Part shown: one piece after another, positions 12,234 through 31,597 of the stretch | How the letters are laid out: every line of letters begins with the position of its first letter | Position numbering within the stretch: the stretch's first letter is position 1 | Source: Micromonospora sp. NBC_00421 | GTDB lineage: Bacteria; Actinomycetota; Actinomycetes; Mycobacteriales; Micromonosporaceae | DNA: 64,000 nt | Assembly (NCBI RefSeq): GCF_036017915.1 | Contig: NZ_CP107929.1 | Coordinates: 992,001-1,056,000 of the forward strand | Direction: 5' to 3' | Position numbers and translations under genes: made by a program | The notes under the pieces: model-generated | Seen by the model: the letters and a program-made list of their open reading frames with translations, nothing else | What the model was told of the DNA's origin: nothing | The model's database searches: none

Positions 12234-12436
12234 GACCTCCGTAATGGGACGGCACAATTCGGCTGCTCCGTGACGCTACGGGCGACTCGATCTCGAACGC
12301 GTCCGCGCGAGGTTCATCCGGGACGACGCGTTACATTGACATTCGTGCCCGCGGGGTGCGGGTTTCGCTTACCTGATCCGCGCCCGGCCTGTACGACAAT
12401 GGACCACGTTCAATGCGTCATAACGGAAGGAATCAC
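12234..12436. promoter_or_regulatory. Divergent promoter region between the two cluster arms
   Basis: About 200 bases separate the lysX-like start (minus) from the sulfotransferase start (plus). TTGACA lies at 12336-12341 on the plus strand, but I cannot place a good -10 box at normal spacing. The partial inverse repeat ACGCGTC / GACGCGT-like around 12297-12332 could be an operator. Both operons of the peptide cluster probably start here. Confidence 0.45.
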
Positions 12437-13793: not shown

Positions 13794-14384
13794 ATGCTCG
13801 TCTCCAGTGCCGTTTCCCGCCGGTGCGATCCGGTCGACATATCCGAGCACCGCAACAACGTCGCCATCTCGTCGGCGACGGCGACCAAGGCCGGCCACTT
13901 CAACGTGTGGGGCAACTCGTTCGCCGCCGAGCACCTGCCGGCCGGCGAAAGCCTCGTCCACGTGGCGGGCGTGCCCTTCCACTTCCCGCCGGTGTGTGCC
14001 GGCCCTGACAACGTCCGCTGCGAAGGACAGTTCATCGCCGTGGCGCAGGGCCGTTACGACTGGGTGCACGTTCTGGCGGCGGCCGAGCGGCGCTGCGAGG
14101 ACACCGTGGAGCTGAACTTCACTGCCGGCCCGGTCGACGCCGAGTGGCTGCGGGTCTCCGACTTCTGGGCGGCACCGGCCTGGTTCGGCGAGCTCCTGGC
14201 GTTCCAGAGCCCGGTCATGCACTACCCGCACCACGTGCAGCAGGGCGTGCCGGCCGTCATGTGGGCCCAACGGGTGCCGGTCACCCGGCGTGCCGACCTC
14301 GTCGGCATCCGCCTGCCGCGTAACGCCGCGATGCACCTCTTCGCGGTCACCGTCCAACACGCGGAGGGCGATCATGACCAGTGA
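13794..14384 (+). CDS. Small protein of no recognised family; candidate subunit of an aziridine-forming enzyme (Vzb10/11, AziU2-like)
   Basis: A 196-residue soluble protein behind GAGGGAGAG. I recognise no standard domain. It contains many aromatic residues and the segments HFNVWGNSFAAEHLPAG and VMHYPHHVQQGVPAVMWAQ. It overlaps the next gene by 11 bases, so the two are probably made in equal amounts. In vazabitide and azinomycin biosynthesis a heterodimer of two proteins with no known relatives (Vzb10/11, AziU3/U2) closes the aziridine by sulfate elimination. A small protein paired with a larger one, next to a sulfotransferase and the carrier pathway, fits that description. Homology is inferred from context and size only. 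Confidence 0.55.
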   Translation: MLVSSAVSRRCDPVDISEHRNNVAISSATATKAGHFNVWGNSFAAEHLPAGESLVHVAGVPFHFPPVCAGPDNVRCEGQFIAVAQGRYDWVHVLAAAERRCEDTVELNFTAGPVDAEWLRVSDFWAAPAWFGELLAFQSPVMHYPHHVQQGVPAVMWAQRVPVTRRADLVGIRLPRNAAMHLFAVTVQHAEGDHDQ

Positions 14385-15396
14385 CGTGACGGCCCGGACC
14401 TACCTGATCGCCGAGCCTGAGCTGTGGTGCCGCGACCTGATCAGCTGCCTGCAGGCCACGTTCGGCACGCTGGTGGCCCGGTGGGGTGCCGACCCGTTGG
14501 CCGTGCTCGGGGCGGGTTGGCGGTTCCTGCACCTGCCGGGCGACGTCCGGTTCGACGAGTTCTACTACCCCTGCCCGGACGGCGACCTGGGCGCGGCCCT
14601 GGCCCCGCACCACGAGCTGCGGGCCCGCTGGTGGCAGCCGGCCGACGAGGACGACGTCTGGCGGGAGGTGCGCGAGTCGCTGGCCCGCGACCAGCCGGTC
14701 ATCGCCGCGGTGGACAACTTCTACCTGCCGTTCCGGCCCGCCTACGGCGACGTGCACGCCGCTCACCTCGTGGTGATCTATGGCTTGGACGAGGACCGCG
14801 GGCTCGTGTACGTCTCGGACGCGATGCCGCCGGCCTACCGCGGGCCGGTCCCGCTCGGGGAGTTCCTGAACAGCTGGGGTTCGGCCAACCCGGCCGACGT
14901 GCAGGACGCGTTCTTCAGCGACTCGCGGATCGGCAGGCGCTGTCTCGACGTCCGGCTCGACGCCCCACCCGCGCCGCTGACCCCCGAGCTGCTCCACGGG
15001 TACCTGCGCGTCGACGTCGACGACTTCACCACCGCCACCGCGGCCCGTAACGGTCTCGCCGGGTTCGACGCGTTCGCCGGAGAACTCGTCGACCGGTGCC
15101 GGGCGGGGGACGCCGCCGCGCTGCGCGAGCTGTACCCGTTCGGTTGGGGCATGCAGGCGCAGGCGTCGCTGCACGGGGAACTGCTGCGCCGCTGCGGCCG
15201 GGAGTGGGGCGACCCGGCCCTCGCCGGGGCCGGACGGGCCGTCGAGGCGGTCGCCCACGCCTGGACCGGGCTGCGCATCACCGGCGCGCACGGGATCGCC
15301 GATGCCCGGGCGGTCTCCGCCGACATCGCTCACCACGCCACCGTCCTGCGTGGCAAGTACGCGTACGCCGTCGACGCCGTCACCGCGGCGATCTGA
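14374..15396 (+). CDS. BtrH-like fold protein; candidate partner subunit for aziridine formation (AziU3-like)
   Basis: A 340-residue protein starting at ATG 14374 inside the end of the preceding gene; the open frame from 14290 is in a shadow of that gene. The middle (AHLVVIYGLDEDRGLVYVSD, then FLNSWGS) resembles the BtrH N-terminal/papain-like family, although the usual N-terminal catalytic Cys context is not obvious. The C-terminal 130 residues are mostly helical. It is translationally linked to the 196-residue protein. By context it is the candidate large subunit of the sulfate-eliminating aziridine synthase. Alternatively it could be an acyltransferase acting on the carrier-bound amino acid, as BtrH does in butirosin biosynthesis. 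Confidence 0.55.
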   Translation: MTSDVTARTYLIAEPELWCRDLISCLQATFGTLVARWGADPLAVLGAGWRFLHLPGDVRFDEFYYPCPDGDLGAALAPHHELRARWWQPADEDDVWREVRESLARDQPVIAAVDNFYLPFRPAYGDVHAAHLVVIYGLDEDRGLVYVSDAMPPAYRGPVPLGEFLNSWGSANPADVQDAFFSDSRIGRRCLDVRLDAPPAPLTPELLHGYLRVDVDDFTTATAARNGLAGFDAFAGELVDRCRAGDAAALRELYPFGWGMQAQASLHGELLRRCGREWGDPALAGAGRAVEAVAHAWTGLRITGAHGIADARAVSADIAHHATVLRGKYAYAVDAVTAAI

Positions 15397-15414: not shown

Positions 15415-16707
15415 ATGAGCAAGCTGGCAGCGTTCGGCGGCACGGCCGCCGTACCGAAGGACCGGCGCGGCGTGGACTGGCCGCTGATCGAGGACGAGGA
15501 CCGCAAGGCCGTCCTCGACGCGCTCGACGGCGGCCGGCTGGTGTCCAACACCGAAGGCGTCAACCCGGTCGCCACCCTCGAGGCGAACTGGGCGCAGCGG
15601 TTCGGCTTCGACCACTGCGTCGCGGTGTCCACCGGTACGGCGGCGCTGTCCCTGGCGCTGGCCGCGCTGGGGATCGGACCGGGCGACGAGGTGATCGTGC
15701 CCGCGCTCAGCTTCATCGCCACCGGGCTCGCCCCGGTACACCAGATGGCCGTTCCCGTGTTCGCCGACGTCGACCCGGTCACGTTCAACCTCGACCCGGA
15801 CGATGTCGAGCGTCGGATCACGCCGAGGACCGCGGCGATCATCCCGGTGCACCTGCACGGCGCGCCGGCCGACATGGACCGGCTCCTCGACATCGCACGC
15901 CGGCACGGCCTCGCGGTGATCGAGGACGCGGCCCAGGCCCCCGGTGCGACCTACCGGGGTCGGCCGGTCGGCGGGATCGGTGACGCGGGAGCGTTCAGCC
16001 TGCAGGTCACGAAGAACATCCCGACCTGCGGCGAGGGCGGCCTGCTGGTGACCGGCCGTGCCGAGCTGGCCGAGGCGGTCCGCCGGGCCCGGCAGTTCGG
16101 CGAGGTGATCGAGAGTGGCCGCGACCGCGACTACGTGTCCCACGGCCTGGGCTGGAACCACAAGATGAACGCGATCCAGGCCGCGTTCACCACCGCGCAG
16201 CTCGCCCGGTTCGACGGGTACGAACGCCAGCGGCAACGCAACGTCGCCGAATTCCTCGCGCGGCTCACGGCGCTGCCCGGCCTGCGCGTACCGACCGCGC
16301 TCCCGGACACCACACATGTCTGGCACATCCTGCGGTTCCGGTTCGAGCGGGCCGGGTTCGGTCTCTCCGACGACGTACGGCCGGTGGCGCTGCGCTCGGC
16401 GCTGCGGCGGCTGCTGCGCGCCGAAGGTGTGCCGATGTCGCAGTACCAGCTGATGCCGCTGCCCGACCAGAAGGTGTTCGTCGACCGCGTCGGGTTCGGC
16501 GCCGGCTATCCGTGGACCGTGACCGGCGGATCGGCCCCGGGCGCGGACTACCCGGTGGCCCGGGCCATCATCGCCGACTCCCTCGCCCTGCAGAAGCGTC
16601 ACCTCAATCCGGGATCGGGCGAGCTGCTCGGCCACTACGCGGACGCGTTCGAGAAGGTCTGGGCGAACCGGGACGCGGTGGCGACGCTCGCGGCGGCGGC
16701 GTCATGA
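15415..16707 (+). CDS. DegT/DnrJ/EryC1-type PLP aminotransferase
   Basis: A 430-residue fold type I aminotransferase of the sugar/AHBA-synthase group. Landmarks are [35 protein letters not shown] and the PLP lysine in [17 protein letters not shown] (near residue 199). It starts at ATG 15415 behind GGAGAGG and overlaps the transketolase gene by ATGA. In the carrier-protein route to diamino-dihydroxyheptanoic acid an aminotransferase converts the ketone made by transketolase into the second amine. Its position before the split transketolase fits this. Substrate assignment is inferred. Confidence 0.85.
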
Positions 16708-17534
16708 CCACGGCCCAGGACACGCTGGAGGCGGTCGCCGCCCGCATCCGCACCCACGTCGTCGACATGTGCGCGGGGCCGGAAGGCGGCCACCTCGGCG
16801 GCGCCTTCTCCTGCGTCGAGGTGCTCAGCGCGCTGTACTTCTCGGTGCTCAACGTGGACCCGCGGCGGCCGAACCACCCGGACCGCGACCGCTTCCTGCT
16901 CAGCAAGGGCCACGCCGCGCTGGCCCTCTACGCGACGCTCGCCGAACGGGGTTACTTTCCGGTCGGGGAGCTCGCCGGATACGGACGGCCAGGTAGCCGG
17001 TTGATGGGTCATCCGGTGCGGGCGGTGCCCGGGGTCGAGCTGCCGACCGGGTCGCTCGGCCACGGTCTCGCGCTGGCCTGCGGGTTCGCGCTGGCCAACC
17101 GGTACGCCGGCCGTGACTCACGCAGCTTCGTGCTGCTCGGCGACGGCGAACTCCAGGAGGGTTCGGTGTGGGAGGCGGCCATCGCGGCCGCGTCGCTGCG
17201 GCTGGACCGGCTGGTCGCCGTCGTGGACCGCAACGGGCTGCAGCTGACCGGCCCGGCCGAGCGGATCGCGCCGATGGAACCGCTGGCCGAACGCTGGCGC
17301 AGCTTCGGCTGGGCGGTCCGCGACGTGGACGGCCACGACGCGAACGCGCTGGCCGACCACCTCGCCACCGCACCGTGGGAGCCGGGCCGGCCGAGTGTGC
17401 TGATCGCCCGCACGGTCAAGGGGCACGGGCTCTCGTTCCTCGCCGGGCGGCCCGACAGCCACTACGTGACGCTGTCGCCGCGCAACCACGCCCGGGCGCT
17501 CGCCGCGCTGGCCGTCCCGGACGCCGCCCGATGA
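16704..17534 (+). CDS. Transketolase, N-terminal (TPP-binding) subunit
   Basis: A 276-residue protein equal to the N-terminal third of transketolase. The thiamine diphosphate motif is visible as GDGELQEG followed about 25 residues later by [19 protein letters not shown] and [15 protein letters not shown] are family signatures. It pairs with the next gene, which it overlaps by ATGA. In the vazabitide pathway a split transketolase moves a two-carbon hydroxyacetyl unit onto carrier-bound glutamate semialdehyde, and the neighbouring lysW, lysY and lysZ homologues point to the same step here. Confidence 0.88.
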
Positions 17535-18481
17535 GCCGCGCGGTCCGGGAGGCGTACCGGGACTGCCTGCTCTCCCTGCTGGAGCGGCATCCGGAGGCGA
17601 TCTGCCTGGACACCGACACCGGTCTGTTCCGCCCGGAGCACGTCTCGGCGGCCGGGGACCAGTACCTCAACCTCGGCATCGCCGAGCACAACCTGATGGG
17701 GATCGCCGCCGGAATGGCCGCGTGCGGGCGCATGCCGTTCGTGAACACGATGGCCGCGTTCGCCGCCTCGCGCGCCCTGGAGGCCATCAAGATCGACATC
17801 GCGTACAACCGGCTGCCGGTCCGCATCATGGCCACCCACGGCGGTCTCGCCGCCGGCCACCTCGGCCCGACCCACCAGGCCCTGGAGGACCTCGCCGTGC
17901 TGCGGGTGCTACCCGGGATGACCGTGGTGGTGCCGGCCGACGCGGCGGCCGTGGAGGCGTTCGTCGCGCAGAGCCTGAGCCTGCCGGGACCGCTCTATGT
18001 CCGGCTCGACCGTAAACCGTCGCCGCCGCTGCCGCCGGCCCCTGCGCCGGTCATCGGTCGCGCGCAGACGCTGCGAACGGGCGGGGACGCCGTCCTCGCG
18101 TGCTGCGGCCCCTACCCGACGCTCGCCTGCCTCGCTGCGGCGGACATCCTCGCCGGGCACGGCATCGAGACCACCGTGCTGAACCTGCACACGGTGCGGC
18201 CCCTCGACACCGGGACGCTGATCGAGGCGGCGCGACCGGCCGCGCTCGTGGTCACGGTCGAGGAGCACTGGCGCAGCGGCGGCCTCGGCGGCGCGGTGAC
18301 CGAAGCCCTGGCCGAGGCCGCGCCGACGAAGGTCCTGCGGCTGGGGATGCCGGACCAGTTCGTCGACACGGTCGGCAACCAGGAACACCTCCTCACGCAC
18401 TACGACATCACCGCGGAACGGATCGTGACCATGGTCCGCACCGCACTCGACGCGACGGCTCGCCTCGGGACCCACCAGTGA
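17531..18481 (+). CDS. Transketolase, C-terminal (pyrimidine-binding) subunit
   Basis: A 316-residue protein matching the central and C-terminal transketolase domains. NLGIAEHNLMGIAAGMA carries the catalytic Glu that contacts TPP; HGGLAAGHLGPTHQALED and TVEEHWRSGGLGGAV are further family signatures. Start and stop overlap or abut the neighbouring genes. It forms the active enzyme with the 276-residue subunit; neither is complete alone. The likely acceptor is carrier-bound glutamate semialdehyde, giving a seven-carbon ketone for the aminotransferase. Confidence 0.87.
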   Translation: MSRAVREAYRDCLLSLLERHPEAICLDTDTGLFRPEHVSAAGDQYLNLGIAEHNLMGIAAGMAACGRMPFVNTMAAFAASRALEAIKIDIAYNRLPVRIMATHGGLAAGHLGPTHQALEDLAVLRVLPGMTVVVPADAAAVEAFVAQSLSLPGPLYVRLDRKPSPPLPPAPAPVIGRAQTLRTGGDAVLACCGPYPTLACLAAADILAGHGIETTVLNLHTVRPLDTGTLIEAARPAALVVTVEEHWRSGGLGGAVTEALAEAAPTKVLRLGMPDQFVDTVGNQEHLLTHYDITAERIVTMVRTALDATARLGTHQ

Positions 18482-18494: not shown

Positions 18495-18668
18495 ATGACC
18501 ACCATGTCGGCCTGCCCAGAATGCGCGGACGAGGTGCCGATCAGCGATGCGGTACGGCTCAACGAGATCGTCGAGTGTGCCGGCTGCCGCAACGAACTGG
18601 AGATCGTCGCCCTGACTCCGGCGGTGCTCGCGCTGGCCCCCGAGATCGAAGAGGACTGGGGCGAGTGA
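18495..18668 (+). CDS. lysW: LysW-type amino-group carrier protein
   Basis: A 57-residue acidic protein. It has two zinc-type cysteine pairs (CPEC near residue 7 and CAGC near residue 28) and ends in EEDWGE, the signature tail of LysW, whose last Glu gamma-carboxyl is the attachment point for the amino group of the substrate. It starts at ATG 18495 after AAAGGA and its stop overlaps the next start as GTGA. It would hold glutamate and later intermediates during phosphorylation, reduction, chain extension, amination and probably sulfation. Its presence in an NRPS cluster, rather than in a lysine operon, indicates secondary metabolism. Confidence 0.93.
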   Translation: MTTMSACPECADEVPISDAVRLNEIVECAGCRNELEIVALTPAVLALAPEIEEDWGE

Positions 18669-19684
18669 TCCGCGTCGCTGTCGTCGGCGCGGCCGGATTC
18701 ATCGGCGGGGAGTTGCTGCGACTGCTCGTCGGGCACCCCGAGGTCGAGGTGACGGCTGCGGTCTCCTCCCGGTTCGCCGGAAAACGGGTCGACGGGGTCC
18801 ACCCGAACCTGCGATCCGCCACAGAACTGCTGTTCTGCTCGGCGGACGACGTGGACGAGTACGAGACCGTCTTCCTGGCCACGCCGCACGGCGCCGCGAT
18901 GACCCAGATCGACCGCTGGATAAGACACACCAAACAGGTCATCGACCTCACCGGCGACTTCCGGCTGGACGACACCGAGGTCTTCCAGCGCTACTACGGG
19001 ACTCCGCACGCCGCGCCACACCTGCTCGGCGAGTTCGTGCCGGGAATTCCGGAGCTGCACCGGGAGCGCCTACGCGGCGCCGACCTGGTCAGCGTGCCCG
19101 GATGCATGGCGGTGGCCGGCGTGCTCTCGCTGTACCCGATCCGGGACATGATCGGACCGGACGCCCGGCTGGACGCGCGTACCGGGTCCAGCGGATCCGG
19201 GGCCACTGCCGGCGACGGCAACCTCCACGCGTTCCGCAGCGGGGCGATGCGGGTGTTCGCGCCGACCGGACACCGGCACGAGGCGGAGATCGCCCGGCAC
19301 GTCGGCGTGCGGGTCACCATGACCGCGACCGGGGTGGAGGCGGTGCGGGGCGTGCAGACGATCTGTCACGTCACCCCGAAACCCGGCGTCGACGCGAAGG
19401 CGATACGCCGGGCGTTCCGGGAGCGGTACCGCGACGAGCCGTTCGTCCGGCTGGTCGCGCAGCAACGCGGCCTGTACCGGTACCCGGAACCGAAGATCCT
19501 GTCGGGTTCGAACTTCTGCGACGTCGGGTTCGCCTTCGACGAGGACACCGGCCGGCTGACCACCATCGCGGCGCTGGACAACCTCATGAAGGGCGGCGCC
19601 GGCAACGCGGTCCAGTGCCTGAACATCCGCATGGGCTGGCCGGAGACCCTCGGCCTGTCCTTCCCCGGCCTGCACCCCGCCTAG
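18665..19684 (+). CDS. lysY: LysY/ArgC-like carrier-bound acyl-phosphate reductase
   Basis: A 339-residue NADPH-dependent reductase of the ArgC family. The Rossmann motif is VAVVGAAGFIGGELLRLL at the N-terminus. The active-site cysteine lies in VSVPGCMAVAG (near residue 148), and the C-terminal NLMKGGAGNAVQCLN is a family signature. The start is GTG 18665, overlapping the lysW stop. It should reduce carrier-bound glutamyl phosphate to the semialdehyde that transketolase then extends. Confidence 0.9.
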   Translation: MIRVAVVGAAGFIGGELLRLLVGHPEVEVTAAVSSRFAGKRVDGVHPNLRSATELLFCSADDVDEYETVFLATPHGAAMTQIDRWIRHTKQVIDLTGDFRLDDTEVFQRYYGTPHAAPHLLGEFVPGIPELHRERLRGADLVSVPGCMAVAGVLSLYPIRDMIGPDARLDARTGSSGSGATAGDGNLHAFRSGAMRVFAPTGHRHEAEIARHVGVRVTMTATGVEAVRGVQTICHVTPKPGVDAKAIRRAFRERYRDEPFVRLVAQQRGLYRYPEPKILSGSNFCDVGFAFDEDTGRLTTIAALDNLMKGGAGNAVQCLNIRMGWPETLGLSFPGLHPA

Positions 19685-19691
19685 GAGAGCC

Positions 19692-20555
19692 GTGACCAGA
19701 CTGCTGACGGTCGTCAAGTGCGGCGGGAATCCGGCCGTGGACTCGACGAGCATCTGTGCCGACGTCGCCCGGCTCGTCCACCGGGGCGAGGCTGTCGTCC
19801 TGGTGCACGGCGGCTCCGGCGAGATCGCCCGGCTGGCCGGGAAGCTGGGCGTGCCGCAGCGCACCCTGGTCGCCCCGGACGGGGTGTCGGCCCGGTACAC
19901 CGATCCGGCGATGCTGGAGGTCGTCGTGCTCGCGCTGGCCGGGGCGGTCAAGCCGGCGATCGTCGCCGCGCTGTCCGGCCTCGGGGTGCCCGCCGTCGGC
20001 CTCACCGGCCTCGACGGCGGCATGCTGCGGGCCCGCCGCAAACCGGCGGTCCGGGCGGTGGTGGACGGCCGGACCGTGCTGGTGCGGGACAACCACAGCG
20101 GCCAGATCGGCACCGTCCGCACCGAGCTGCTGGAAGGCCTGCTGCGGTCCGGTCTGGTGCCCGTGGTGTCGCCGCCCGCCATCGACGAGCACGACCACCC
20201 GGTGAACGTCAACGCCGACCGCGTGGCGGCGGCGCTCACGGTGGCGCTCGGCGCCGACCGGCTGGTGCTGCTGACCGGCGCACCGGGCGTACTCGCCGAC
20301 CCCGGGGACGACACCAGCGTGCAGAGCACCTACGAGGTGCCCCCGACGGGCGCTCCCGGACCCGTCGCCGGCGGCGGCATGGCGCTCAAACTCGTCGCCG
20401 CCCGGGAGGCGCTGGCGGGCGGGGTGGCCTCGGTGCGGATCGCCGACGGACGGGTGCCCGATCCCATCAGCCGGGCCCTGGCCGGGTCCGGAACAACGGT
20501 GACCATGGCCGGTGCCTTGTCGGTGGCCGGCCGGTCCGCGCGAAAGGGGAACTGA
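19692..20555 (+). CDS. lysZ: LysZ/ArgB-like carrier-bound amino acid kinase
   Basis: A 287-residue amino acid kinase. It shows [17 protein letters not shown], the substrate loop [20 protein letters not shown] and [13 protein letters not shown]. Its start is GTG 19692 with AGGAG seven bases after the lysY stop. LysZ phosphorylates the side-chain carboxylate of the LysW-bound amino acid, here probably glutamate. It acts between the lysX-like ligase and the lysY-like reductase, although lysX is in the divergent arm. Confidence 0.9.
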
Positions 20556-20557: not shown

Positions 20558-20752
20558 ATGGACCGCACCTACCTCGTGGTCGTCAACGACGAGGAGCAGT
20601 ACTCGATCTGGGACGCCGACCGTGAGCTGCCGGCCGGGTGGCGCGGCGAGGGCTTCCGCGGCCCCGAGGCCGACTGCCTGGCCCACATCGAGGAGATCTG
20701 GACCGACATGCGTCCGCTGAGTCTGCGCCGTGCCATGGAGTCGGGCGCCTGA
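20558..20752 (+). CDS. MbtH-like protein
   Basis: A 64-residue protein with the MbtH pattern ([33 protein letters not shown]). MbtH proteins bind adenylation domains and are often needed for their folding or activity. It starts two bases after the kinase stop and precedes the large NRPS, so it probably serves one or more of the four adenylation domains in this cluster. Confidence 0.95.
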
Positions 20753-20797: not shown

Positions 20798-23700
20798 GTG
20801 ATGATCCTCGATCAGTTCCATTCCCGCGTCACCCAGGCGCCGGATGCGATCGCCGTGCAGGACGGCGACCGGCGGCTCACCTACCGGGAGTTGGCCGGAC
20901 ACGCCTGCGGGCTGGCGGTCCGGCTCACCCGGCGTGGAGTGCGACCGGGTGACGTGGTCGCCGTCTACGTCGACCGGTCCGCCGAGATCGTCGTCGCCGA
21001 GCTGGCCGTGCTGCTGGCCGGCGCGGCCTACGTACCGCTCGATCCGGCCCATCCGACCACGCGGACCACAGAGCTGCTGGGCCTGGCCCGGGCCGCCGCC
21101 GTGATCACCACCCGGCCGTTGCTGTCGGCCGGCGTGGAGCTCGACGATCCCGAGGTCGTCGACCTGGCGCAGGCGCCCACCGAACGCTACGAGCCGGTCC
21201 CGCGACCGGACGACGACGCGCTGGCCTATGTCATCTTCACGTCCGGCTCGACGGGCCGGCCCAAGGCGGCCGCGGTTCGCCACGGCGGCCTCGCGAACCT
21301 CATGCGCTGGCACGAGGATGCCTTCGGCCTGGGCCCGCAGGACCGCACGACGCTGCTGTGCGCCCCCGGATTCGACGTCTCGGTGTGGGACACCTGGCCC
21401 ACGCTGGCGGCCGGCGGCACGCTGGTGGTGCCGCCCGCGGCCGTGCGCGCCTCGCCGCCGGACCTGGCCGCCTGGCTGGCCGACGAGCGGATCACCGCGA
21501 CCTTCCTGCCCACGCCGCTGGCCGAGGCGGTACTCGACGTGCCGTGGCCGGCGCACAGCGCGCTGCGGTGGATGCACACCGGCGGGTCCGCGCTGCAGCG
21601 CGGCGCGTCGCCCGGCCTGCCGTTCACCCTGGTCAACGTGTACGGCCCCGCCGAGTGCACGGTGGCCGCGACGACCGCCGTGGTGTCGTCGGACGGGCCG
21701 GTGCCGCCACCGATCGGCGTGCCCGTCGACGGCGTGCGCTGTCACGTGCTCGACGGCTTCGACGTGGTGCCCGACGGCGAGCCCGGCGAGATGTGCCTGG
21801 CCGGCGCGTGCGTGGCCCGCGGCTACCTGAACGCTCCGGCCTTCACCGCGCGGTCGTTCGTGCCCGACGTCACAGTGCCGGGCCAGCGGATGTACCGCAC
21901 CGGCGATCTGGTCCGCCGCCGGCCCGACGGGACCTTCGAGTACCTCGGCCGGCTCGACGACCAGGTCAAGATCCGTGGATTCCGGATCGAGCCCGGCGAG
22001 ATCGCGGCCGTCCTGCGGCAGCACCCGGCCGTCCGGGAGTCCTACGTGGCCGCCCAGCGCACCGGCTCCGCCGACCCGGTGCTGCACGCCTACGTCGCCG
22101 CGGACGCCACACCGGCCGAGCTGATCGCGTTCGTGGCGGCCCGGCTGCCCGACTACATGGTGCCCGCCGCCGTCGTCGTGCTGCCCGCGCTGCCGATGAC
22201 GGCCAACGACAAGGTGGATCGGGCCGCGCTGCCCGCGCCCGACCGGGTGGCCGCCGGCCTGGCCGGGATGACCGCGCCGCATCGCACGCCGACCCAGGGC
22301 GCGGTGGCCAGGATCGTGTCCGACCTGCTCGGTGGCGTGGCGGTCGGCGCCGACGACGACTTCTTCGCCCTCGGCGGCACCTCGCTGCTGGTCGGCCGGC
22401 TGGCGACCCGGATCGCCGTCGAGCTCGACGCGAAGCTCAGCCTGGCCGAGCTGGCCTGCGCCCGCACGATCGCCGCGTTCGCCGACCTGGTCGACGAGCG
22501 GACCGGCCGACCAGAGGTGGACACCGGCCTGGACCTGAACTCCCCGGTCCCACCGACCCCGCCGCCGATCGCCCCGGCCGGCCGCGGTCGGCTCATCCCC
22601 CTGTCGTTCCAGCAGGAACGGGTGTGGTTCTTCGCGCAGCTGGCCCCGGACAACATCGCCTACAACTTCCAGGCCACGGTGTCGCTGCACGGCGACGTGG
22701 ACACCGGTGCCCTGCGCGCCGCGCTCGACGAGATCGTGCGCCGGCACGAGATGCTGCGGACCGCCTTCGTCAGCGTAGACGGCGTCGCGGTGCAGCAGCC
22801 GGTCGCACGCGTGGGCACGCCGCTGCGCGTGTTGGACGTGCCGCGCGAGCAGGCCGACGACGTGGTCGCCGCCGAGCTGGCCCAGCCGTTCGACCTGGCG
22901 AGCGCGCCGCTGGCCCGCTGGCTGCTGCTGCGCCACGGGGACGGCGAGAACACGTTCGTCCACGTCGAACACCACTTCATCCACGACGGCTGGTCGCTCG
23001 CGGTGTTCCTGTCCGAACTGTCGGCGCTCTATCCGGCGTTCGCCGCCGGTCAGCCGTCGCCCTTGCCGGAACTGGCCGTCCAGTACGCGGACTACGCGAT
23101 CTGGCAGCGGGAGTGGATGAGCGGTGACGTGCTGAAGGCCCACGTCAACCACTGGACCACCCGGCTCGCCGGCGCGTCCGCCCTGTTGGAGCTGCCGACC
23201 GACCACCCGCGGCCGCCGGTCATGAGCCTGCGTGGCGCGGCGCCGCGGATCAGGGTCCCGGCCGAGCTGGCCCGCGCGCTGCGCGCGTTCAGCCGGCAGC
23301 ACCGGGTGTCGCTCTTCTCGACCATGTACACCGCCTTCGCCGCCCTGCTGCACCGGTACACCGGGCAGCAGGACCTGCTGGTCGGCACCGGCATGGCCAA
23401 CCGGAGCCTGCCCGAGATCCAGCCGCTGCTCGGCATGATCGTCAACACGGTGGTGCTGCGGACCCGGCCGCACGGCCGGATGTCGTTCACCGACCTGCTC
23501 GACCAGGTCCAGGAGACCGTGCTCGACGCGCTGGCCTGGTCCGACACCCCGCTGGACACGGTGATCAACGCGATCGGGCCGGAACGCGACTCCTCGCGGC
23601 TCCCGCTGTTCCAGGTCATGTTCAGCTTCCACGACTCGGCCGTGCCCGACCTCGACTTCGGCGGGCTCACCGGTGCGGTCACCGAGCGGGCGAACGGCTC

Positions 23701-26700
23701 GGCCAAGGCCGACCTCAACATCATCGTCGTGCCGCGCGGGGCGCAGCGGGTGGGCCGGGAGTCCCGGCCCGAGGACGACGACCTGAACCTGATCTGGGAG
23801 TACTCGACCGACCTGTTCGACGCGTCGACCATGTCCCGGATGGCCGAGCACTACCTGAACCTGCTCGCCGGTGCCCTGGCCCGACCGGACTCCGCGATCG
23901 ACGGGCTGCGGCTCATGCCGGACGACGAGTCGCGGCGGCTCGAGCAGTGGAGCCGCGGGCCCGCGGTGGCCGACACCGAGCCGGGTCGGACGATCCCCGC
24001 CCTGTTCGCGGCCCAGGTCGCGATCCGGCCGGACGCGACGGCGCTGGTCTGCGGCACCGGATCCATGACCTACGCGGAGCTGGACCGGCGCAGCAACGCC
24101 CTGGCCTGGCGGCTGCGCCGCCGCGGAGTGGTCACCGACGTGCCGGTCGCGGTGGCGATGGAGCGCGGCCCCGACCTCGGGGTGGCCCTGCTGGCCGTGT
24201 CGAAGGCCGGCGGCGCGTACCTGCCGATCGACGCGGGCAGCCCGGCGCCCAGGGTGGCGGCCATGATCGCCGCCGCGGGCGCCCGGCTCCTGCTGGCGAA
24301 GCGGGCCACCGACCGGGTCGAGATGCCCGGGGTGGACACGGTGTACGTCGACGCCGAGCCCACCGACGCCGCCGACGAGTGGACGGCACCACCGGACCTG
24401 TCCCACCCGGACAGCCTGGCCTACCTCAGCTTCACCTCGGGCTCGACCGGCGTGCCGAAGGGTGTCGCCGTGCCGCACCGCGGCGTGGCACGGCTCGTCC
24501 ACGACCCGTCGTTCGCCCCGCTCGGCCCGGGCCAGCGGCTCCTGCACCTCGCCCCGGTCGCGTTCGACGCGTCCACGTGGGAACTGTGGGGCGCGCTGCT
24601 GACCGGCGCGACGACGGTGATCGCGCCGCCCGGCCCGCTCGGGCTGCCGGAGATCGCCGCCCTGCTGCGCACCGCCGACGTGACGGTCGCGTGGCTCACC
24701 GCCGGCCTGTTCCACCAGCTGGCCGAGGCGGATGTCGAGGCCGTCGCCGGGGTACCCGTCGTCCTGGCCGGCGGCGACGCGCTCAGCCCCGCCACGGTGC
24801 GCGCCGTGCTGTCGGCCCGCGGCGGCCGACCGCTGGTCAACGGGTACGGCCCGACCGAGAACACCACGTTCACCACCTGCCACGTGCTGACCGACCCGGA
24901 CCAGGTGGCGTCGACGGTGCCCATCGGCCGTCCGATCCAGGGCACCTCCGTGCACCTGTTCGACGAGAGCGGTCAGCCGGTGCCGATCGGTGTGACCGGC
25001 GAGCTGTTCACCGGTGGGGACGGTCTCGCCCGCGGCTACGTCGGCAACGCCTCGGCCACCGCGCGGGCCTTCGTGCCCGATCCCCACGGGTGCGGCACGC
25101 GCCTGTACCGGACCGGGGACCTGGCCCGTTGGCGCACCGACGGGACGCTCGAGTTCGTCGGCCGCGCCGACGACCAGATCAAGATCCGTGGTTTCCGGGT
25201 CGAGCCCGGCGAGGTCGCGTCGGTCCTGCGCACGCATCCGGACGTGGGCGACGCGGTCGTCCTGGTGGCCGGTCAGGGCGCGCAGCGGCACCTGATCGCG
25301 TACGTGACACCGGCCGACGGTGTCGACCCGGGCCTCCTACGGCCGCCGTCGCTGCGCGACTTCCTGGTCGGTCGCCTGCCGGAATACCTGGTACCCACCG
25401 GGTTCAGGGCCCTCGACCGGTTCCCGCTCAACGCCAACGGCAAGATCGACCGGGGCGCGCTGCCCGCGCCGGAGGTCCAGACCCGCGGGCAGGTCACCCC
25501 GCCACTGGGTGACACCGAGGAGCGGTTGGCCGACACCTGGCGGCGGCTGCTGCCCGCCCACGGCCCGTACGGCGGCGCCATCGGCCGCGACGACAGCTTC
25601 TTCGCCCTCGGCGGCAACTCGCTCCTGGCGTCCCGCCTGATGTTCCGGATCCGCGAGGTGTTCGACGTCGAGCTGCGCATGGCCACCTTCTACGAGAAGC
25701 CCACGCTCGTCGACTGTGCCGCCGCGATCGACGCCGCCCGTGACCGGACCGCGACCGTCGCGGCGCGACCGGCCACCATCGGCCGCCAGGACCGCCGTGC
25801 CTACCGCGCCCGCGCCCCGAAGCCGCCGCCGGGCCGGAAACTCGCGCCGCACCTGGTCCACCTGGGTGGCGACTGGGCGCTGTGGCGGACGGTCTGCCTG
25901 CGGGCGGCCGGTTTCCCGGCCCACCTGCTGGCCGGCCTCGGCGCCGCGGATCTGGCCGAGGCGGCGGACGCCGTCGTCGCCGTGGGCGAGCCGGCCAGGG
26001 CCACCTACTCCGCCGAGTTCACCGCGGCGGTGCGACGCCAGTCCGCGGTCCTGCACGAGGCGGCCAGCCGGCCGGCGCTGCGGGAAGCGGTCGCCTGGCA
26101 GAACCGGCACGCGCTGACGACCGGCCTCGATCCGGTCGTCCGGCGTGGGCCGGAGCCGGCCAAGCGGGACACCAAGGCCCGGCAGCACGAGGCGCTCATC
26201 GCGAGTTACCTGCAGCGGTACTGCGCGAAGAACGACACCATCGGCTTCTTCGGCCCGGTGGATTGGTCGCGGATCGACGACGGCGCCGGCATCCGGATCA
26301 CGCACGATCCGGCGGGGCGGTTCCTGGCCGAGCGCATCACCTACCTGGAGGGCTGGGCGGTGGCCGCGGTCCTGGCCGGCCACACCACGGCCCTCCGGCC
26401 CTGGCTCGTACCGCGGTGGATGCCGTTCGTCGGCCTCGACGGCAGCCAGCTGCGGGTGCCGCTGGCACCGCCGGTGCCGCTGACCCCGGCCGAGGCGGCG
26501 GTCCTGCGGGCCGTCGACGGCGCGCGTGACGCCCGCGCGGTCGCCGCCCTGGCGCTCGCTGACGAGTCCGCCGGGCTGCGTGACGTCGAGGAGGTCTTCG
26601 CCGTGCTGGCCCGGCTGGCCGACCAGCGCCGGCTGGCCTGGCAGGTCGAGATCTCCCCGCCCGACATCCATCCGGAGCGGACCATGCGGACGCTGCTGGC

Positions 26701-28171
26701 CCGGGTCACCGACGGCGACGTCCGGGCGGCGGCCACCCGGGCGCTCGACGAGCTGACCGCCGCCCGGGACGAGCTGGCCGGGGCGGCCGGCGACCCGGAG
26801 GGGGTGGTCGCGGCCATGGCCGGCCTGGAGGCGACGTTCACCCGCCTGGCCGGCGTCCCGCCCACCCGACGGGCCGGCGAGCTGTACGCCGGTCGCACGG
26901 TCGCCTACGAGGAGTGCCGGCGCGCCGACACCGTACGGCTCGGCGCCGACACGCTGGACGGTCTCCGGGAGGCGTTGGCGCTGGTGCTCGACAGCGCCCG
27001 GTGGTTCCTCGGCGACTGCGCCGAGGCGTACACCGCCCATTTCGAGGCGGCCTACCGGAAGCGGGCCGCCGCGCTCGGCACCGACGTCGTGCCGTTCGCC
27101 GACTTCTGGCTGCTCGTCAACGACGCCCTGTTCCACGGGGCGTCGACCCTCATCCAGCCCGCGGTGACGGCGCTGCAGGAACGCTGGTCGGCGATCCTCG
27201 ATCTGCCCGAAGGCTCCCGGCGGGTGCAGCTGCGCTCGGCCGACCTGCGGCGTCGGGCGGCCGACCGGTTCCCGGCCCCGCCGCGGCCGTGGCCGACGGC
27301 TGTGTTCCACAGCCCGGACCTGATGATCGCCGGAGCGGACGCCGCCGCCGGCGGCCGGCTCACCTGGGTGCTCGGCGAGGTCCACCCCAGCAAGGTCACC
27401 GCCCGCTACGGCACGTGGCTGGAGCTGCACGACGACCCGGACGGCTACCACGCGGCCATGCGGCACGACCTCGCCGGACCGGTCGTCTGGCAGGCCGAGA
27501 CGGCCGAGGTCGGCGGCAGCGCCACCCGCCAGGCCGGTGCGTTGGTGTCCCCGGGCGACCGGTGGCTCGTCTGGTCGCACGACGCCAACGGCTACGACCC
27601 GGCCACGACCCTGGTCGTGGGGGACTGCGACGTGATCGACTCGGCCACCGGGCTGCGGGTCCGGCACCGCGACGGCACATTCGAGCGCGACCTGCTCCCG
27701 GTCCTCGGCGACCTGATCATCGCCGTGATCATCAACAGCTTCGACCCGGTGCCGCCCGCCGCCCACACGCCCCGCGTCACCGTCGACGATCTCGTGATCG
27801 GTCGGGAACGGTGGACGTTCGCCGCCGCCGACCTCCCGTTCGCCGGTACGGCCGACGAGAGCGCCCGGTACCTGCAGGCCCGGGCGTGGGCGACCGGCCA
27901 CGGACTGCCCCGGCACGTGTTCCTCCGGTTCACCGGCGAGCGCAAGCCGATCTACGCGGACCTGACCAGCCTCGCGTCGATCGACCTGATCTCCCGGTCG
28001 GTGCGACGCTGTCGCCGCCACGGCCGGGCCGAGGCGACGGTGACCGTCGTGGAGATGCTGCCGGAACCGGATCAGGCCTGGCTCGTCGACGCCGACGGCC
28101 AGCGCTACACCAGCGAACTGCGCCTGGTCGCAGTCGATCAGAAGACCGCTGAGCAGAGTCAGGAAGGCTGA
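20798..28171 (+). CDS. NRPS (A-T-C-A-T) fused to a LanB-type tRNA-dependent glutamylation domain
   Basis: A 2457-residue protein. A1 covers about 10-480 (FTSGSTGRPK near 148), T1 is near 530 (FFALGGTSLL), C covers about 600-1030 (HHFIHDGWS near 725), A2 about 1060-1560 (FTSGSTGVPKG near 1212), and T2 is near 1607 (FFALGGNSLL). From about 1680 to the end it is a lantibiotic-dehydratase N-terminal domain: KNDTIGFFGPVDW near 1811, FHSPDLMIA near 2171 and LGEVHPSKVTARYG after it. The SpaB_C elimination domain is absent. Such domains transfer an amino acid from aminoacyl-tRNA to a hydroxyl or, in PEARL enzymes, to a peptide C-terminus. Pocket residues read by eye are D-V-W-F-M-T-V-V-A-K for A1 (unassigned) and D-A-W-W-V-A-G-T-F-K for A2 (Val-like). 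As A1 has no C domain before it, this is probably the initiating synthetase. GTG 20798 or ATG 20801 are possible starts. Confidence 0.92.
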   Translation: MMILDQFHSRVTQAPDAIAVQDGDRRLTYRELAGHACGLAVRLTRRGVRPGDVVAVYVDRSAEIVVAELAVLLAGAAYVPLDPAHPTTRTTELLGLARAAAVITTRPLLSAGVELDDPEVVDLAQAPTERYEPVPRPDDDALAYVIFTSGSTGRPKAAAVRHGGLANLMRWHEDAFGLGPQDRTTLLCAPGFDVSVWDTWPTLAAGGTLVVPPAAVRASPPDLAAWLADERITATFLPTPLAEAVLDVPWPAHSALRWMHTGGSALQRGASPGLPFTLVNVYGPAECTVAATTAVVSSDGPVPPPIGVPVDGVRCHVLDGFDVVPDGEPGEMCLAGACVARGYLNAPAFTARSFVPDVTVPGQRMYRTGDLVRRRPDGTFEYLGRLDDQVKIRGFRIEPGEIAAVLRQHPAVRESYVAAQRTGSADPVLHAYVAADATPAELIAFVAARLPDYMVPAAVVVLPALPMTANDKVDRAALPAPDRVAAGLAGMTAPHRTPTQGAVARIVSDLLGGVAVGADDDFFALGGTSLLVGRLATRIAVELDAKLSLAELACARTIAAFADLVDERTGRPEVDTGLDLNSPVPPTPPPIAPAGRGRLIPLSFQQERVWFFAQLAPDNIAYNFQATVSLHGDVDTGALRAALDEIVRRHEMLRTAFVSVDGVAVQQPVARVGTPLRVLDVPREQADDVVAAELAQPFDLASAPLARWLLLRHGDGENTFVHVEHHFIHDGWSLAVFLSELSALYPAFAAGQPSPLPELAVQYADYAIWQREWMSGDVLKAHVNHWTTRLAGASALLELPTDHPRPPVMSLRGAAPRIRVPAELARALRAFSRQHRVSLFSTMYTAFAALLHRYTGQQDLLVGTGMANRSLPEIQPLLGMIVNTVVLRTRPHGRMSFTDLLDQVQETVLDALAWSDTPLDTVINAIGPERDSSRLPLFQVMFSFHDSAVPDLDFGGLTGAVTERANGSAKADLNIIVVPRGAQRVGRESRPEDDDLNLIWEYSTDLFDASTMSRMAEHYLNLLAGALARPDSAIDGLRLMPDDESRRLEQWSRGPAVADTEPGRTIPALFAAQVAIRPDATALVCGTGSMTYAELDRRSNALAWRLRRRGVVTDVPVAVAMERGPDLGVALLAVSKAGGAYLPIDAGSPAPRVAAMIAAAGARLLLAKRATDRVEMPGVDTVYVDAEPTDAADEWTAPPDLSHPDSLAYLSFTSGSTGVPKGVAVPHRGVARLVHDPSFAPLGPGQRLLHLAPVAFDASTWELWGALLTGATTVIAPPGPLGLPEIAALLRTADVTVAWLTAGLFHQLAEADVEAVAGVPVVLAGGDALSPATVRAVLSARGGRPLVNGYGPTENTTFTTCHVLTDPDQVASTVPIGRPIQGTSVHLFDESGQPVPIGVTGELFTGGDGLARGYVGNASATARAFVPDPHGCGTRLYRTGDLARWRTDGTLEFVGRADDQIKIRGFRVEPGEVASVLRTHPDVGDAVVLVAGQGAQRHLIAYVTPADGVDPGLLRPPSLRDFLVGRLPEYLVPTGFRALDRFPLNANGKIDRGALPAPEVQTRGQVTPPLGDTEERLADTWRRLLPAHGPYGGAIGRDDSFFALGGNSLLASRLMFRIREVFDVELRMATFYEKPTLVDCAAAIDAARDRTATVAARPATIGRQDRRAYRARAPKPPPGRKLAPHLVHLGGDWALWRTVCLRAAGFPAHLLAGLGAADLAEAADAVVAVGEPARATYSAEFTAAVRRQSAVLHEAASRPALREAVAWQNRHALTTGLDPVVRRGPEPAKRDTKARQHEALIASYLQRYCAKNDTIGFFGPVDWSRIDDGAGIRITHDPAGRFLAERITYLEGWAVAAVLAGHTTALRPWLVPRWMPFVGLDGSQLRVPLAPPVPLTPAEAAVLRAVDGARDARAVAALALADESAGLRDVEEVFAVLARLADQRRLAWQVEISPPDIHPERTMRTLLARVTDGDVRAAATRALDELTAARDELAGAAGDPEGVVAAMAGLEATFTRLAGVPPTRRAGELYAGRTVAYEECRRADTVRLGADTLDGLREALALVLDSARWFLGDCAEAYTAHFEAAYRKRAAALGTDVVPFADFWLLVNDALFHGASTLIQPAVTALQERWSAILDLPEGSRRVQLRSADLRRRAADRFPAPPRPWPTAVFHSPDLMIAGADAAAGGRLTWVLGEVHPSKVTARYGTWLELHDDPDGYHAAMRHDLAGPVVWQAETAEVGGSATRQAGALVSPGDRWLVWSHDANGYDPATTLVVGDCDVIDSATGLRVRHRDGTFERDLLPVLGDLIIAVIINSFDPVPPAAHTPRVTVDDLVIGRERWTFAAADLPFAGTADESARYLQARAWATGHGLPRHVFLRFTGERKPIYADLTSLASIDLISRSVRRCRRHGRAEATVTVVEMLPEPDQAWLVDADGQRYTSELRLVAVDQKTAEQSQEG

Positions 28172-28174: not shown

Positions 28175-31100
28175 GTGGCTATCTACGAGCTCCCGACGTC
28201 GTTCGCCCAGCGGCGGATGTGGCTGCTGGTCGAGATGGACCCCGACCTGCCCACGTACAACATCTCCTGGGCGGTGTGGCTGGACGGTCCGCTCGACGTC
28301 GACGCGCTGCAGGGAGCGTGGGACGCGGCCCTGGCCCGGCACGAGTCCCTGCGCACCACGTTCCGCCACGAGGCCGGCGTGCCGGTGCAGATCGTCGACG
28401 ACGAGCCCGAGCCGCGGCCGCTGCTGATCACCTCGGTCGAGGATCGGCCCGACGGCGAGCGGGTACCGGCCGCCCAGGCGCTGATCCGCGACATGGCCGG
28501 CATCACCTTCGACGTGGCCACCGGGCCGCTCGCCGTGGCCACCCTGGTCCGGATATCGCCGCAGGCCCATGTTCTCGCGGTCGTGGCCCACCACATCGTG
28601 GCCGACGGCTGGTCGTTCCGGGTCCTGTTCGACGAGCTGTCCACCGACTACGACGCGCTCGTCGGCGACGGTGCCCCGATCGTCGCGGAGCCGGCGATCC
28701 AGTACGCCGACTACGCCGTCTGGCAGCTCGGGCACGCCGAGGACGGCGGGTACGCGTCGGCCGGCCGGTTCTGGCAGGACGAGCTGGCCGACGCGCCGTC
28801 GGCGCTGTCACTGCCGACCGACGAGCCGTATCCGGACCGCCAGACCTTCGCCGGCCGGTCCATCCACACCACACTGGACACCGGCCTGGCCGATGCGCTC
28901 CGGCAGCTCGCGGCCCGGCAGGGCACCACGGTGTTCGCCGTCCTGCTGGCCGCCTACGCGGTCGTGTTGTCCCGGCTGACCGACAGCGACGACCTGGTGA
29001 TCGCCGTACCGATGGCCGCCCGGACCCGGCCGGAGACGGAGACGATGGTCGGCCTGCTGATGAACACCGTGCCGATCCGGGTCCGGATCGACCGGGACGC
29101 CACGCTCGGCGACCTGGTGCGATCCGTCCACCTCGCGACCGCGCGGGCGCTGGCCCACCAGGAGCTGCCGTTCGAGCGGATGGTGGAACTGCTGCGCCCC
29201 GACCGCGACCCGGCCCGGTTCACGCTGACCCAGGTGATGTTCGCGATGGAGGAGTCCTGGGCCGTCCCGGACCGCGGCGGGCTTCACTGGCGGCCCGAGC
29301 TGGTGGAGAACGGCACCGCGAAGTTCGAGATCGAGCTGACCGTCACCGAGGCGGCGGACGCACCCCAGCTGCGGGTCAACTACAACAGCGACCTCTTCCA
29401 CGACGCGACCGGCCAACTGGTGACCGACGGCTTCCAGGCGGTCCTGCGCTGCCTCGCCGACGACCCGGACGGCGTCGTCGCCGACGCGGAGATCATGTCC
29501 CCCGATCTGTCGGCCCTGGTCACCGACCGCTGGCCGGACGGCGGCCCGCACCTCGACCCGGAGGCCACCGCCGTGGCCCGGTTGTCCGCGGCGTGTGCCG
29601 GCGACTCGGTCGTCGTCACCGGCAGCGACGACGAGCTGACCGGCGCGCAGGTGCGCGACCGGGCCGGGCGGATCGCCGCCGCGCTCGCCGACCGGGGTGT
29701 CGGCCCGGCCGACCGGGTGGCGATCCTGCTGCCCCGCGGCGCCCGACTCCTGCCCACGGTCCTCGGCGTCTGGTCGACCGGCGCGGCCTACATACCGCTG
29801 GACCCGATCTATCCGCAACAGCGCATCGCCATGATGCTGGCCGATGCCGGGGCGGCCGCGATCGTGGTCGACAGCGGCGTCGCGGGCGCGCCGGCCCTCC
29901 CACCGACGGCGGCGCCGATACCGGTCGTGGACCTGGCCGCGCTCCCGGCGGACCTCGAGCGGCCCGAGCCGGTACCCGACCGGCCGCCGTCGGCCCCGGC
30001 CGTGACCATCTTCACCTCGGGGTCGACCGGCCGGCCCAAGGCGGTCACCGTGACCCAGGGCGGCATCGCGGCGCTGCTCGACGCGGTCGTGCCGATGCTG
30101 GCCCTCGGCCCGCAGGACCGGTTCGTCGCCGTGTCGACGTTCGCGTTCGACATCGCCCTGGTCGAGCTGCTCGCGCCGGTACTGGCCGGCGGACGCGTCG
30201 CGGTCGCCGATACCGACCAGGTCAAGGACCCGACCCGGCTGCGCGAACTGCTGATCGACAGCGGCGCGACTGCCATGCAGGCCACGCCGGCCGGTTGGCG
30301 GATGCTCGTCGACGCCGGCGGCATCCCGGACGCCGTGACGCTGCGGATGACCGCCGGGGAGCCGCTGCCCAGGGACCTGGCCGACGTGATGGGCGCCGGC
30401 CCGGGAGCGCGCGTGTGGAACCTGTACGGCCCGACCGAGACGACGATCTACTCCGGCGGTGACGTCGTCGCCGGATCGCCGGCCCCGATCGAGATCGGGT
30501 CGATCATCGCCGGCACCCGGCTGTACGTGCTCGACGCCCGGCAGCGGCCGGTCCCGCCCGGCGTCTTCGGGGAGGTCTACATCGGGGGAGCCGGGGTGGC
30601 CCACGGCTACCACGGTGCACCCGGGATGACCGCGGCCCGTTTCCGGCCCGACCCGTTCGCCCCGCGGCCGGGTGCCCGCCTGTACCGGACCGGTGACGTC
30701 GGCCGGTGGCGCCGGACCGGCCGGATCGAGCTGGCCGGCCGGGCCGACCGGCAGATCAAGATCCGTGGGTACCGGATCGAGAGCGGCGAGGTGGAGGTGG
30801 CCCTACGAAGCCATCCCGACGTTGCCGAGGCCGTGGTGTCGGTGCGGGGTGGCGGTGACGACGTGCGCCTCATCGGCTACGTCGTCACCGGGAACGGCGC
30901 CGACCGGCCGCCCGCCGGGCTGAGCGAACACCTGCGGCAAACGCTTCCCGACTACATGGTCCCGGCCGCGTACGTGGTGCTGCCCGAGCTGCCGCTCACC
31001 CGCAGCGGCAAGGTCGACTACCGCAACCTGCCCGAGCCCGACTGGAGCGCGTCGTCGAGTCAGGAGTCGGTCGCGGCGCGCACCCCGGTCGAGGCCCGCC

Positions 31101-31312
31101 TGGCCGCAATCGTGGCCGAGCTGTTGCTGCTGCCGGCGCCGGTGGGCGTACGGGACAACTTCTTCGCCCTCGGCGGGCACTCGCTGACGGCGGCCCGGTT
31201 GATGGCCCGGATCCGCGCCGACTACGGCATCGACCTACCGATCCGGACGCTGTTCTCCGATCCCACGGTCGCCGGTCTGGCCGCCACGATGGCTGCCGGC
31301 CGGCCCGGCTGA
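28175..31312 (+). CDS. NRPS, one C-A-T module
   Basis: A 1045-residue synthetase. The condensation domain covers about 1-430 with HHIVADGWS near residue 144. The adenylation domain covers about 450-940 (FTSGSTGRPKA). The carrier domain (FFALGGHSLTAARL) is near 1000. The pocket read by eye is D-I-V-Q-M-A-L-I-Y-K, close to the published glycine code D-I-L-Q-L-G-L-I-W-K, so Gly or another small residue is a tentative guess. It follows the large NRPS by three bases and closes the plus arm. No thioesterase is present here; release presumably uses the one in the minus arm. Confidence 0.92.
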   Translation: MAIYELPTSFAQRRMWLLVEMDPDLPTYNISWAVWLDGPLDVDALQGAWDAALARHESLRTTFRHEAGVPVQIVDDEPEPRPLLITSVEDRPDGERVPAAQALIRDMAGITFDVATGPLAVATLVRISPQAHVLAVVAHHIVADGWSFRVLFDELSTDYDALVGDGAPIVAEPAIQYADYAVWQLGHAEDGGYASAGRFWQDELADAPSALSLPTDEPYPDRQTFAGRSIHTTLDTGLADALRQLAARQGTTVFAVLLAAYAVVLSRLTDSDDLVIAVPMAARTRPETETMVGLLMNTVPIRVRIDRDATLGDLVRSVHLATARALAHQELPFERMVELLRPDRDPARFTLTQVMFAMEESWAVPDRGGLHWRPELVENGTAKFEIELTVTEAADAPQLRVNYNSDLFHDATGQLVTDGFQAVLRCLADDPDGVVADAEIMSPDLSALVTDRWPDGGPHLDPEATAVARLSAACAGDSVVVTGSDDELTGAQVRDRAGRIAAALADRGVGPADRVAILLPRGARLLPTVLGVWSTGAAYIPLDPIYPQQRIAMMLADAGAAAIVVDSGVAGAPALPPTAAPIPVVDLAALPADLERPEPVPDRPPSAPAVTIFTSGSTGRPKAVTVTQGGIAALLDAVVPMLALGPQDRFVAVSTFAFDIALVELLAPVLAGGRVAVADTDQVKDPTRLRELLIDSGATAMQATPAGWRMLVDAGGIPDAVTLRMTAGEPLPRDLADVMGAGPGARVWNLYGPTETTIYSGGDVVAGSPAPIEIGSIIAGTRLYVLDARQRPVPPGVFGEVYIGGAGVAHGYHGAPGMTAARFRPDPFAPRPGARLYRTGDVGRWRRTGRIELAGRADRQIKIRGYRIESGEVEVALRSHPDVAEAVVSVRGGGDDVRLIGYVVTGNGADRPPAGLSEHLRQTLPDYMVPAAYVVLPELPLTRSGKVDYRNLPEPDWSASSSQESVAARTPVEARLAAIVAELLLLPAPVGVRDNFFALGGHSLTAARLMARIRADYGIDLPIRTLFSDPTVAGLAATMAAGRPG

Positions 31313-31473
31313 CCCGATCGATCGGTCGCTGATCTTCAACTTGGCGGCAACAGGTGGCTCGACGACGACTCAGCCTGCTGACAGGGTCACCGCAGGCATG
31401 CGGCCGGCGGCGGCCCTGCGCGCGCTGTCTCGACGAGGTCATGGACGCGCGATCACTCTGTCGGCACGCGCAG

Positions 31474-31597
31474 TCACCGCCACGCGTACTCGACGAGCGC
31501 GAGCTGAGCCGTGGTGCCGATGAGCGCGTACTGCGGTCCGAACAGCTTGTCGTTCTGCACCAGCAGGTGCCACTGGGCTCGCAGTCTGGTCTCTCAG
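31474..31597 (-). pseudogene. Unidentified coding remnant
   Basis: On the minus strand a short frame reads in typical codon usage (HLLVQNDKLFGPQYALIGTT, then QLALVEYAWR and TGA at 31474-31476). It is closed upstream by an in-frame stop near 31600 and has no start codon. It looks like the C-terminus of a lost gene. I do not recognise the family. Confidence 0.35.

Follow-up and report, generated by a model that had tools for sequence, protein, structure and literature searches.

In the sna (threopeptin) system of Stackebrandtia nassauensis, the NRPS SnaA, with the domain arrangement A-T-Curea-A-T, forms a ureido dipeptide in vitro, and without snaE the reversed carboxylate no longer carries its Thr (PMC11212132). 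The amide-forming role of SnaE is derived from this gene omission, and the authors deduce from homology that it uses ATP and tRNA; the parts of the threopeptin study drawn on here leave undecided whether the substrate of SnaE is carrier-bound or free (PMC11212132). The signature of urea-forming condensation (Curea) domains is EHHXXHDG (PMC11212132). The ATP site of the peptide aminoacyl-tRNA ligase (PEARL) BhaBCTrp includes Glu575, Arg715, Phe755, and Glu813/Arg815, and the same paper cites Glu801, Arg803, and Glu542 of TglB as experimentally important for phosphorylation (PMC11962472); His577, Tyr426, and Lys763 of BhaBCTrp are reported in PMC12945691. An N-terminal Arg (BhaBCTrp Arg34, TglB Arg10) is an essential residue in PEARLs. 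Fusions of PEARL-like domains to T domains have already been mentioned in print, and no description of a Curea-PEARL fusion was found among open-licence PMC papers.

The window, a stretch of 64,000 nucleotides from Micromonospora sp. NBC_00421, encodes an NRPS (NRPS1) with the A-T-C-A-T arrangement of Curea-type NRPSs, which continues within a single uninterrupted open reading frame into a LanB-N-like domain of 778 residues (Table 1). NRPS1 is probably a system of the SnaA-plus-SnaE type combined in one polypeptide, in which the reversed carboxylate of a ureido chain bound to T2 would be extended in a tRNA-dependent manner.

Table 1. Features of the NRPS1 locus, in positions of the window
Feature	Positions	Strand	Basis or remark
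TE-ACAD, thioesterase fused to acyl-CoA-dehydrogenase-like protein, 867 aa	4316..6919	-	one ORF
NRPS3, C-A-T	6926..10204	-	C motif FHHIIFDG
M20 peptidase	10201..11358	-	nearest model [LysW]-lysine hydrolase (359.8 bits, cut-off 363); approximate start
LysX-like ATP-grasp ligase	11352..12257	-	RimK family above cut-off, LysX model just below
Sulfotransferase	12413..13168	+	Sulfotransfer_5
AziU2/Azi28 homologue	13794..14384	+	7wuw, 8gs1; E ~1e-48
BtrH_N-domain protein	14374..15396	+	scanned as 14290-15393
DegT-family aminotransferase	15415..16707	+	
Transketolase, N-terminal part	16704..17534	+	
Transketolase, C-terminal part	17531..18481	+	scanned as 17168-18478
LysW-type amino-group carrier	18495..18668	+	ends EDWGE; Pfam above cut-off; NCBIfam lysW 49.9 bits, cut-off 53.2
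ArgC-like reductase	18665..19684	+	model above cut-off
[LysW]-aminoadipate kinase-like protein	19692..20555	+	above cut-off
MbtH-like protein	20558..20752	+	
NRPS1, A1-T1-Curea-A2-T2-PEARL-like domain, 2457 aa	20798..28171	+	ORF and domain profiles
T1 Ser529 (GGTSL), carrier attachment site	22382..22384	+	
NRPS1 condensation domain	22595..23941	+	groups with Curea domains in a tree
EHHFIHDG motif, residues 724-731	22967..22990	+	matches published Curea signature EHHXXHDG (PMC11212132)
A2 adenylation domain	24005..25477	+	approximate end; Val-like code by eye, low confidence
T2 carrier domain	25529..25729	+	Ser1608 (GGNSL) at 25619-25621
Linker between T2 and PEARL-like domain	25730..25834	+	
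PEARL-like LanB-N domain, 778 aa	25835..28168	+	
KNDT motif, domain residues 132-135	26228..26239	+	adjoins Y125/R128; putative tRNA-CCA site
E515-x-H517	27377..27385	+	putative counterpart of BhaBCTrp Glu575/His577, ATP/Mg site (PMC11962472, PMC12945691)
E761-x-R763	28115..28123	+	putative counterpart of BhaBCTrp Glu813/Arg815 and TglB Glu801/Arg803 (PMC11962472)
NRPS2, C-A-T	28175..31312	+	C motif AHHIVADG

The earlier note on this DNA had described an NRPS that runs unbroken into a LanB-N-like domain without an elimination domain, and the description is borne out by the single open reading frame and by the LanB N-domain profile check: scanned by itself, the C-terminal domain matches PF04738 with 80.7 bits against a cut-off of 28. 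A match to this profile and retention of the catalytic residues, the two points on which that claim had been made to depend, were both found. The profile scan of the whole protein detected the PEARL-like domain and no elimination domain. The predicted fold of the 778-residue domain is closest to that of TbtB, and the glutamylation-type fold is present.

The residues of the domain were compared between a family alignment of 48 rows (the window plus 47 loci, selected from the 76 for spread and not at random) and 14 LanB controls, which are LanB proteins with an elimination domain and were taken from 20 LanB regions fetched in related genomes. The remaining six LanB loci were dropped: L132, L137, L142, L145, and L150 did not match the family profile at E 1, and the match of L143 had an E-value of only 0.2. 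In a residue map built on published PEARL numbering and spacing, and not on alignment to a characterised PEARL, Asp558, Glu575, Glu813, and Arg815 of BhaBCTrp have their putative counterparts in D495, E515, E761, and R763. The spacing of the CCA-binding pair Y205/R208 and of Y426/R429, R715/F755/K763, and E813/R815 in BhaBCTrp is matched by that of Y125/R128, Y351/R354, R657/F696/K704, and E761/R763, respectively. R18 is a candidate for the N-terminal Arg, with Arg in 25 of the 48 rows and a gap in nine. The published PEARL residues Gln201 and Arg197 (PMC11962472) have no clear counterpart in the NRPS1 domain, where L121 and Q117 occupy these positions.

E515, H517, and R763 are present in all 48 family rows and in one, none, and none of the 14 LanB controls, respectively; for distant LanBs, the alignment is less secure at columns 495, 515, and 517 than at column 763, where the shared E761 provides an anchor. 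D495 is likewise invariant in the family and does not discriminate PEARL from LanB because it also occurs in six of the controls. E761 is found in every family row and every control, so that among D495, E515, E761, and R763 only E515 and R763 separate the two sets. The putative CCA-site residues Y125 (46/48 family rows) and R128 (48/48), the tRNA-site residue [KR]132, and R647 are common to all 14 controls. K704 is replaced by Arg in eight of the 48 family rows.

The PF04738 match, the similarity of the fold to TbtB, and the presence of Y125, R128, and [KR]132 in every control are in keeping with LanB-type glutamylation, by which the domain would esterify Ser or Thr of the chain, perhaps for dehydration. 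Such chemistry is very improbable here, given that the LanB controls have few or no counterparts of E515, H517, and R763 and that no elimination domain was found in the genome of the window or in the flanks of L001-L080. A profile search detected no PF14028 protein anywhere in the genome of the window, and phmmer, with six LanB elimination domains as queries, detected none in the flanks of loci L001-L080; as a positive control, the same search matched 19 of the 20 LanB loci. Because of the family-specific ATP-site residues and the lack of an elimination domain in the genome and in L001-L080, we conclude from sequence that the C-terminal domain of NRPS1 is a putative PEARL-type enzyme and not of the LanB glutamylation type. 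The earlier note had proposed that the assembly line takes either a building block or an ester activation from charged tRNA. The former is likely in view of the LanB-N-like domain, its PEARL residues, and the missing elimination domain, and the latter, activation of Ser/Thr as an ester, is not supported by the same comparison. Weak similarity to LanB elimination domains was observed near Curea NRPSs in two other loci (L177 17371-18414, E 6e-7; L191 1337-2212, E 3e-6), and no PEARL-like domain was found in the stretches around these NRPSs.

The EHHFIHDG motif of the NRPS1 condensation domain had been overlooked in the earlier note. When 68 C domains were placed in a tree, in which Curea rows were labelled by the EHHxxHDG motif and assayed Curea sequences are absent, the domain fell into a 12-row set that has support (SH-aLRT 98) and consists entirely of Curea rows. 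The 25 Curea rows of this tree form one group with respect to the other labelled groups, and three changes are needed when unlabelled rows are counted. The motif is rare and specific, since only 10 of the order's 397 genomes contain a narrower version of the Curea pattern and all 18 fetched sites outside the window fall inside C domains. A Curea domain would leave a free carboxylate, a possible PEARL substrate that the earlier note had missed.

The following sequence of steps is proposed for NRPS1. A1 and A2 would load amino acids onto T1 and T2, and the Curea domain would couple both amino groups via a carbonyl, such that the first residue keeps a free carboxylate and the second remains a T2 thioester. 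The PEARL-like domain, tethered to T2 by the linker, would use ATP to phosphorylate the free carboxylate. The amino group of an aminoacyl-tRNA would attack the activated carboxylate, and the tRNA would then be hydrolysed off, so that the chain would be extended in reverse by a single amino acid. NRPS2 and NRPS3 would then take over the thioester end in trans, and the TE-ACAD protein would release the chain. We infer the reaction and substrate of the PEARL-like domain, the order of the steps, and, from domain position alone, that extension occurs while the chain is on the carrier. Between the window and its orthologue in Micromonospora wenchangensis (L005), Ka/Ks is 0.26 for the PEARL-like domain and 0.33 for the whole of NRPS1; the value of 0.75 for residues 1650-1680, in the linker between T2 and the PEARL-like domain, is the highest among the segments measured.

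With one genome scanned for each species, 286 relatives of the domain were obtained, and 76 loci were kept. The PEARL-like domain shares an ORF with an A domain in 15 of these loci, and in L016 it lies in an overlapping ORF. In 61 of the 76 loci, some of them cut by contig ends, the two domains do not share an ORF. This distribution, together with the question left open in the SnaE study (PMC11212132) in the parts drawn on here, would fit a domain that extends a free carboxylate once the chain has been released, or does so at a later intermediate, so that the fusion merely co-locates the enzymes. We regard this as unlikely, as six fused relatives that were compared keep the cassette of A, T, and then PEARL-like domain intact. 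Their identities to the window are 55-81% for A2, 50-73% for T2, and 44-68% for the PEARL-like domain.

Curea domains were found in five of the 76 loci (L005, L025, L040, L056, L068), and among the 15 fused loci only the orthologue L005 shows one, which weighs against the proposed reading. An HHA[IL]LDG-type C domain stands first in eleven fused loci (L007, L009-L015, L017, L019, L020), and the start of the contig truncates three (L006, L008, L018), including L006, the nearest relative outside the orthologues. In L007 and L009-L012, the five compared relatives in which the C domain is readable, this domain is only 29-36% identical to that of the window, whereas A2 is 55-70% identical. Since A2, T2, and the PEARL-like domain are shared while the C domain is so different, the A-T-PEARL cassette, judged by these identities, either predates its combination with Curea or is independent of it. 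In the fused relatives without Curea, a free carboxylate, if any, must come from elsewhere.

The sharing of the cassette with proteins that do not start with Curea, and the single change that accounts for fusion on the 48-row tree, also accord with an amide ligase that acts on a non-urea carboxylate, which in the wider fused family might be supplied to the carrier-bound chain by an acidic side chain or a dicarboxylic starter, with the Curea module of the window as a later replacement. This is improbable, given that the C domain of the window groups with Curea domains and that SnaA has been shown to have the order A-T-Curea-A-T (PMC11212132). On the same tree, the Curea neighbourhood needs four changes, which suggests that the pairing of Curea with PEARL arose more than once. 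In a tree with seven rows added, four stand-alone rows fall within the fused set. Among the 18 other Curea sites, one (L186) has a PEARL-family member in the fetched stretch, which covered about 10 kb on either side and less at some contig ends; this, too, speaks against the proposed reading.

A member of the family is present in 97 of the 160 genomes of the genus, and the form seen in the window in three of them, namely its own, G156 (92%), and G250 (91%). Within the fetched stretches, which cover TE-ACAD only partly, the gene order from TE-ACAD to NRPS2 is kept in two further species; ORF 31354-32277, the next after NRPS2, has no counterpart in these two.

Several other arrangements of the family were observed. 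C domains of the HHx[IVL]LDG type recur beside or before PEARL-like domains in L021, L027, and L035, as well as in the 11 fused loci. The genome of the window encodes another PEARL-like protein, which is 779 aa long and stands alone (L158, C1:5908000-5927000), with a 491-aa A-domain ORF nearby. Two PEARL-like ORFs flank an A-domain ORF in L054, L058, L062, L065, L067, L073, L076, and others, an arrangement recurrent in Streptomyces and relatives. A plasmid of Kitasatospora sp. NBC_00039 (L159) carries three annotated lantibiotic dehydratase ORFs, head-to-tail with unnamed ORFs of similar size, and tblastn matches occur at seven places in this record.

The genes upstream of NRPS1 include an amino-group-carrier set, in which a LysW-type carrier is accompanied by a ligase, a kinase, a reductase, and a hydrolase of the corresponding types, by a two-part transketolase, and by an aminotransferase. 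Scores exceed the NCBIfam cut-offs for the kinase and ArgC models and fall just short of them for the equivalog models of LysW, LysX, and the hydrolase. Carrier genes were found in L005 only among loci L001-L080, and the set with the sulfotransferase and AziU2 homologue (10201-20555) occurs also in two other species of the genus. AziU2 functions in aziridine formation. Such a gene set makes diamino-dihydroxy-heptanoic acid, which in azinomycin-type compounds is sulfated and then closed to an aziridine (PMC9570651). The 10201-20555 gene set points to an aziridine or azabicycle building block, and the product may contain an aziridine-containing azabicycle. Because the amino-group-carrier, sulfotransferase, and AziU2 genes accompany a Curea NRPS, the product is likely a ureido peptide that contains an azabicyclic residue or a related one. 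In the TE-ACAD ORF, about 250 residues separate the middle and C-terminal dehydrogenase matches. A row of GNAT, DegT aminotransferase, HAD hydrolase, GMC oxidoreductase, dehydroquinate-synthase-like, and MFS genes on the minus strand at 44076-51815 is possibly a separate cyclitol-type cluster.

If NRPS1 is of the SnaA-plus-SnaE type, it would covalently join a thioester assembly line and charged tRNA, exemplify a urea-reversed chain that grows at both ends, and provide a natural A-T-PEARL cassette for engineering. With the NRPS and PEARL-like domain in one protein, the question of carrier-bound versus free substrate can be addressed with a single enzyme or a T2-PEARL didomain. More tentatively, NRPS1 may represent a bidirectional assembly line, in which the thioester end is elongated by the NRPS and the carboxylate end by tRNA ligation in cis, and the A-T-PEARL cassette may be reusable for reverse extension. 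If so, the fused relatives without Curea would expose a free carboxylate by a second, undescribed route.

The searches found no cluster that combines an azabicycle pathway with a PEARL-fused NRPS. The azinomycin and vazabitide pathways, as described in part in PMC9570651, share with the window a kinase, a reductase, a two-part transketolase, an aminotransferase, and a sulfation step, and the vazabitide pathway also a LysW-type carrier. An AziU2 homologue is a further common feature. TbtB, MibB, and NisB (PDB 6ec8, 5ehk, 4wd9) are LanB enzymes that work with an elimination domain, which the genome of the window lacks. BhaBCTrp and TglB have the LanB-N fold that is predicted for the PEARL-like domain of NRPS1, and its putative ATP-site and CCA-site residues agree with theirs by position and spacing; however, they stand alone and act on ribosomal carrier peptides, whereas the window domain is fused to an NRPS (PMC11962472). 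The ketosynthase string DTACSS, sought for comparison with sna, was not found in the window. As far as the published description of sna allows (PMC11212132), both loci encode an A-T-Curea-A-T NRPS with EHHxxHDG, an MbtH-like protein, a thioesterase, an acyl-CoA-dehydrogenase-like protein, and a PF04738 protein without an elimination domain. By the same description, SnaE is a stand-alone protein, whereas the PEARL-like domain of the window lies inside the NRPS, and the window differs further in its fused thioesterase and dehydrogenase, two extra C-A-T NRPSs, and the amino-group-carrier pathway.
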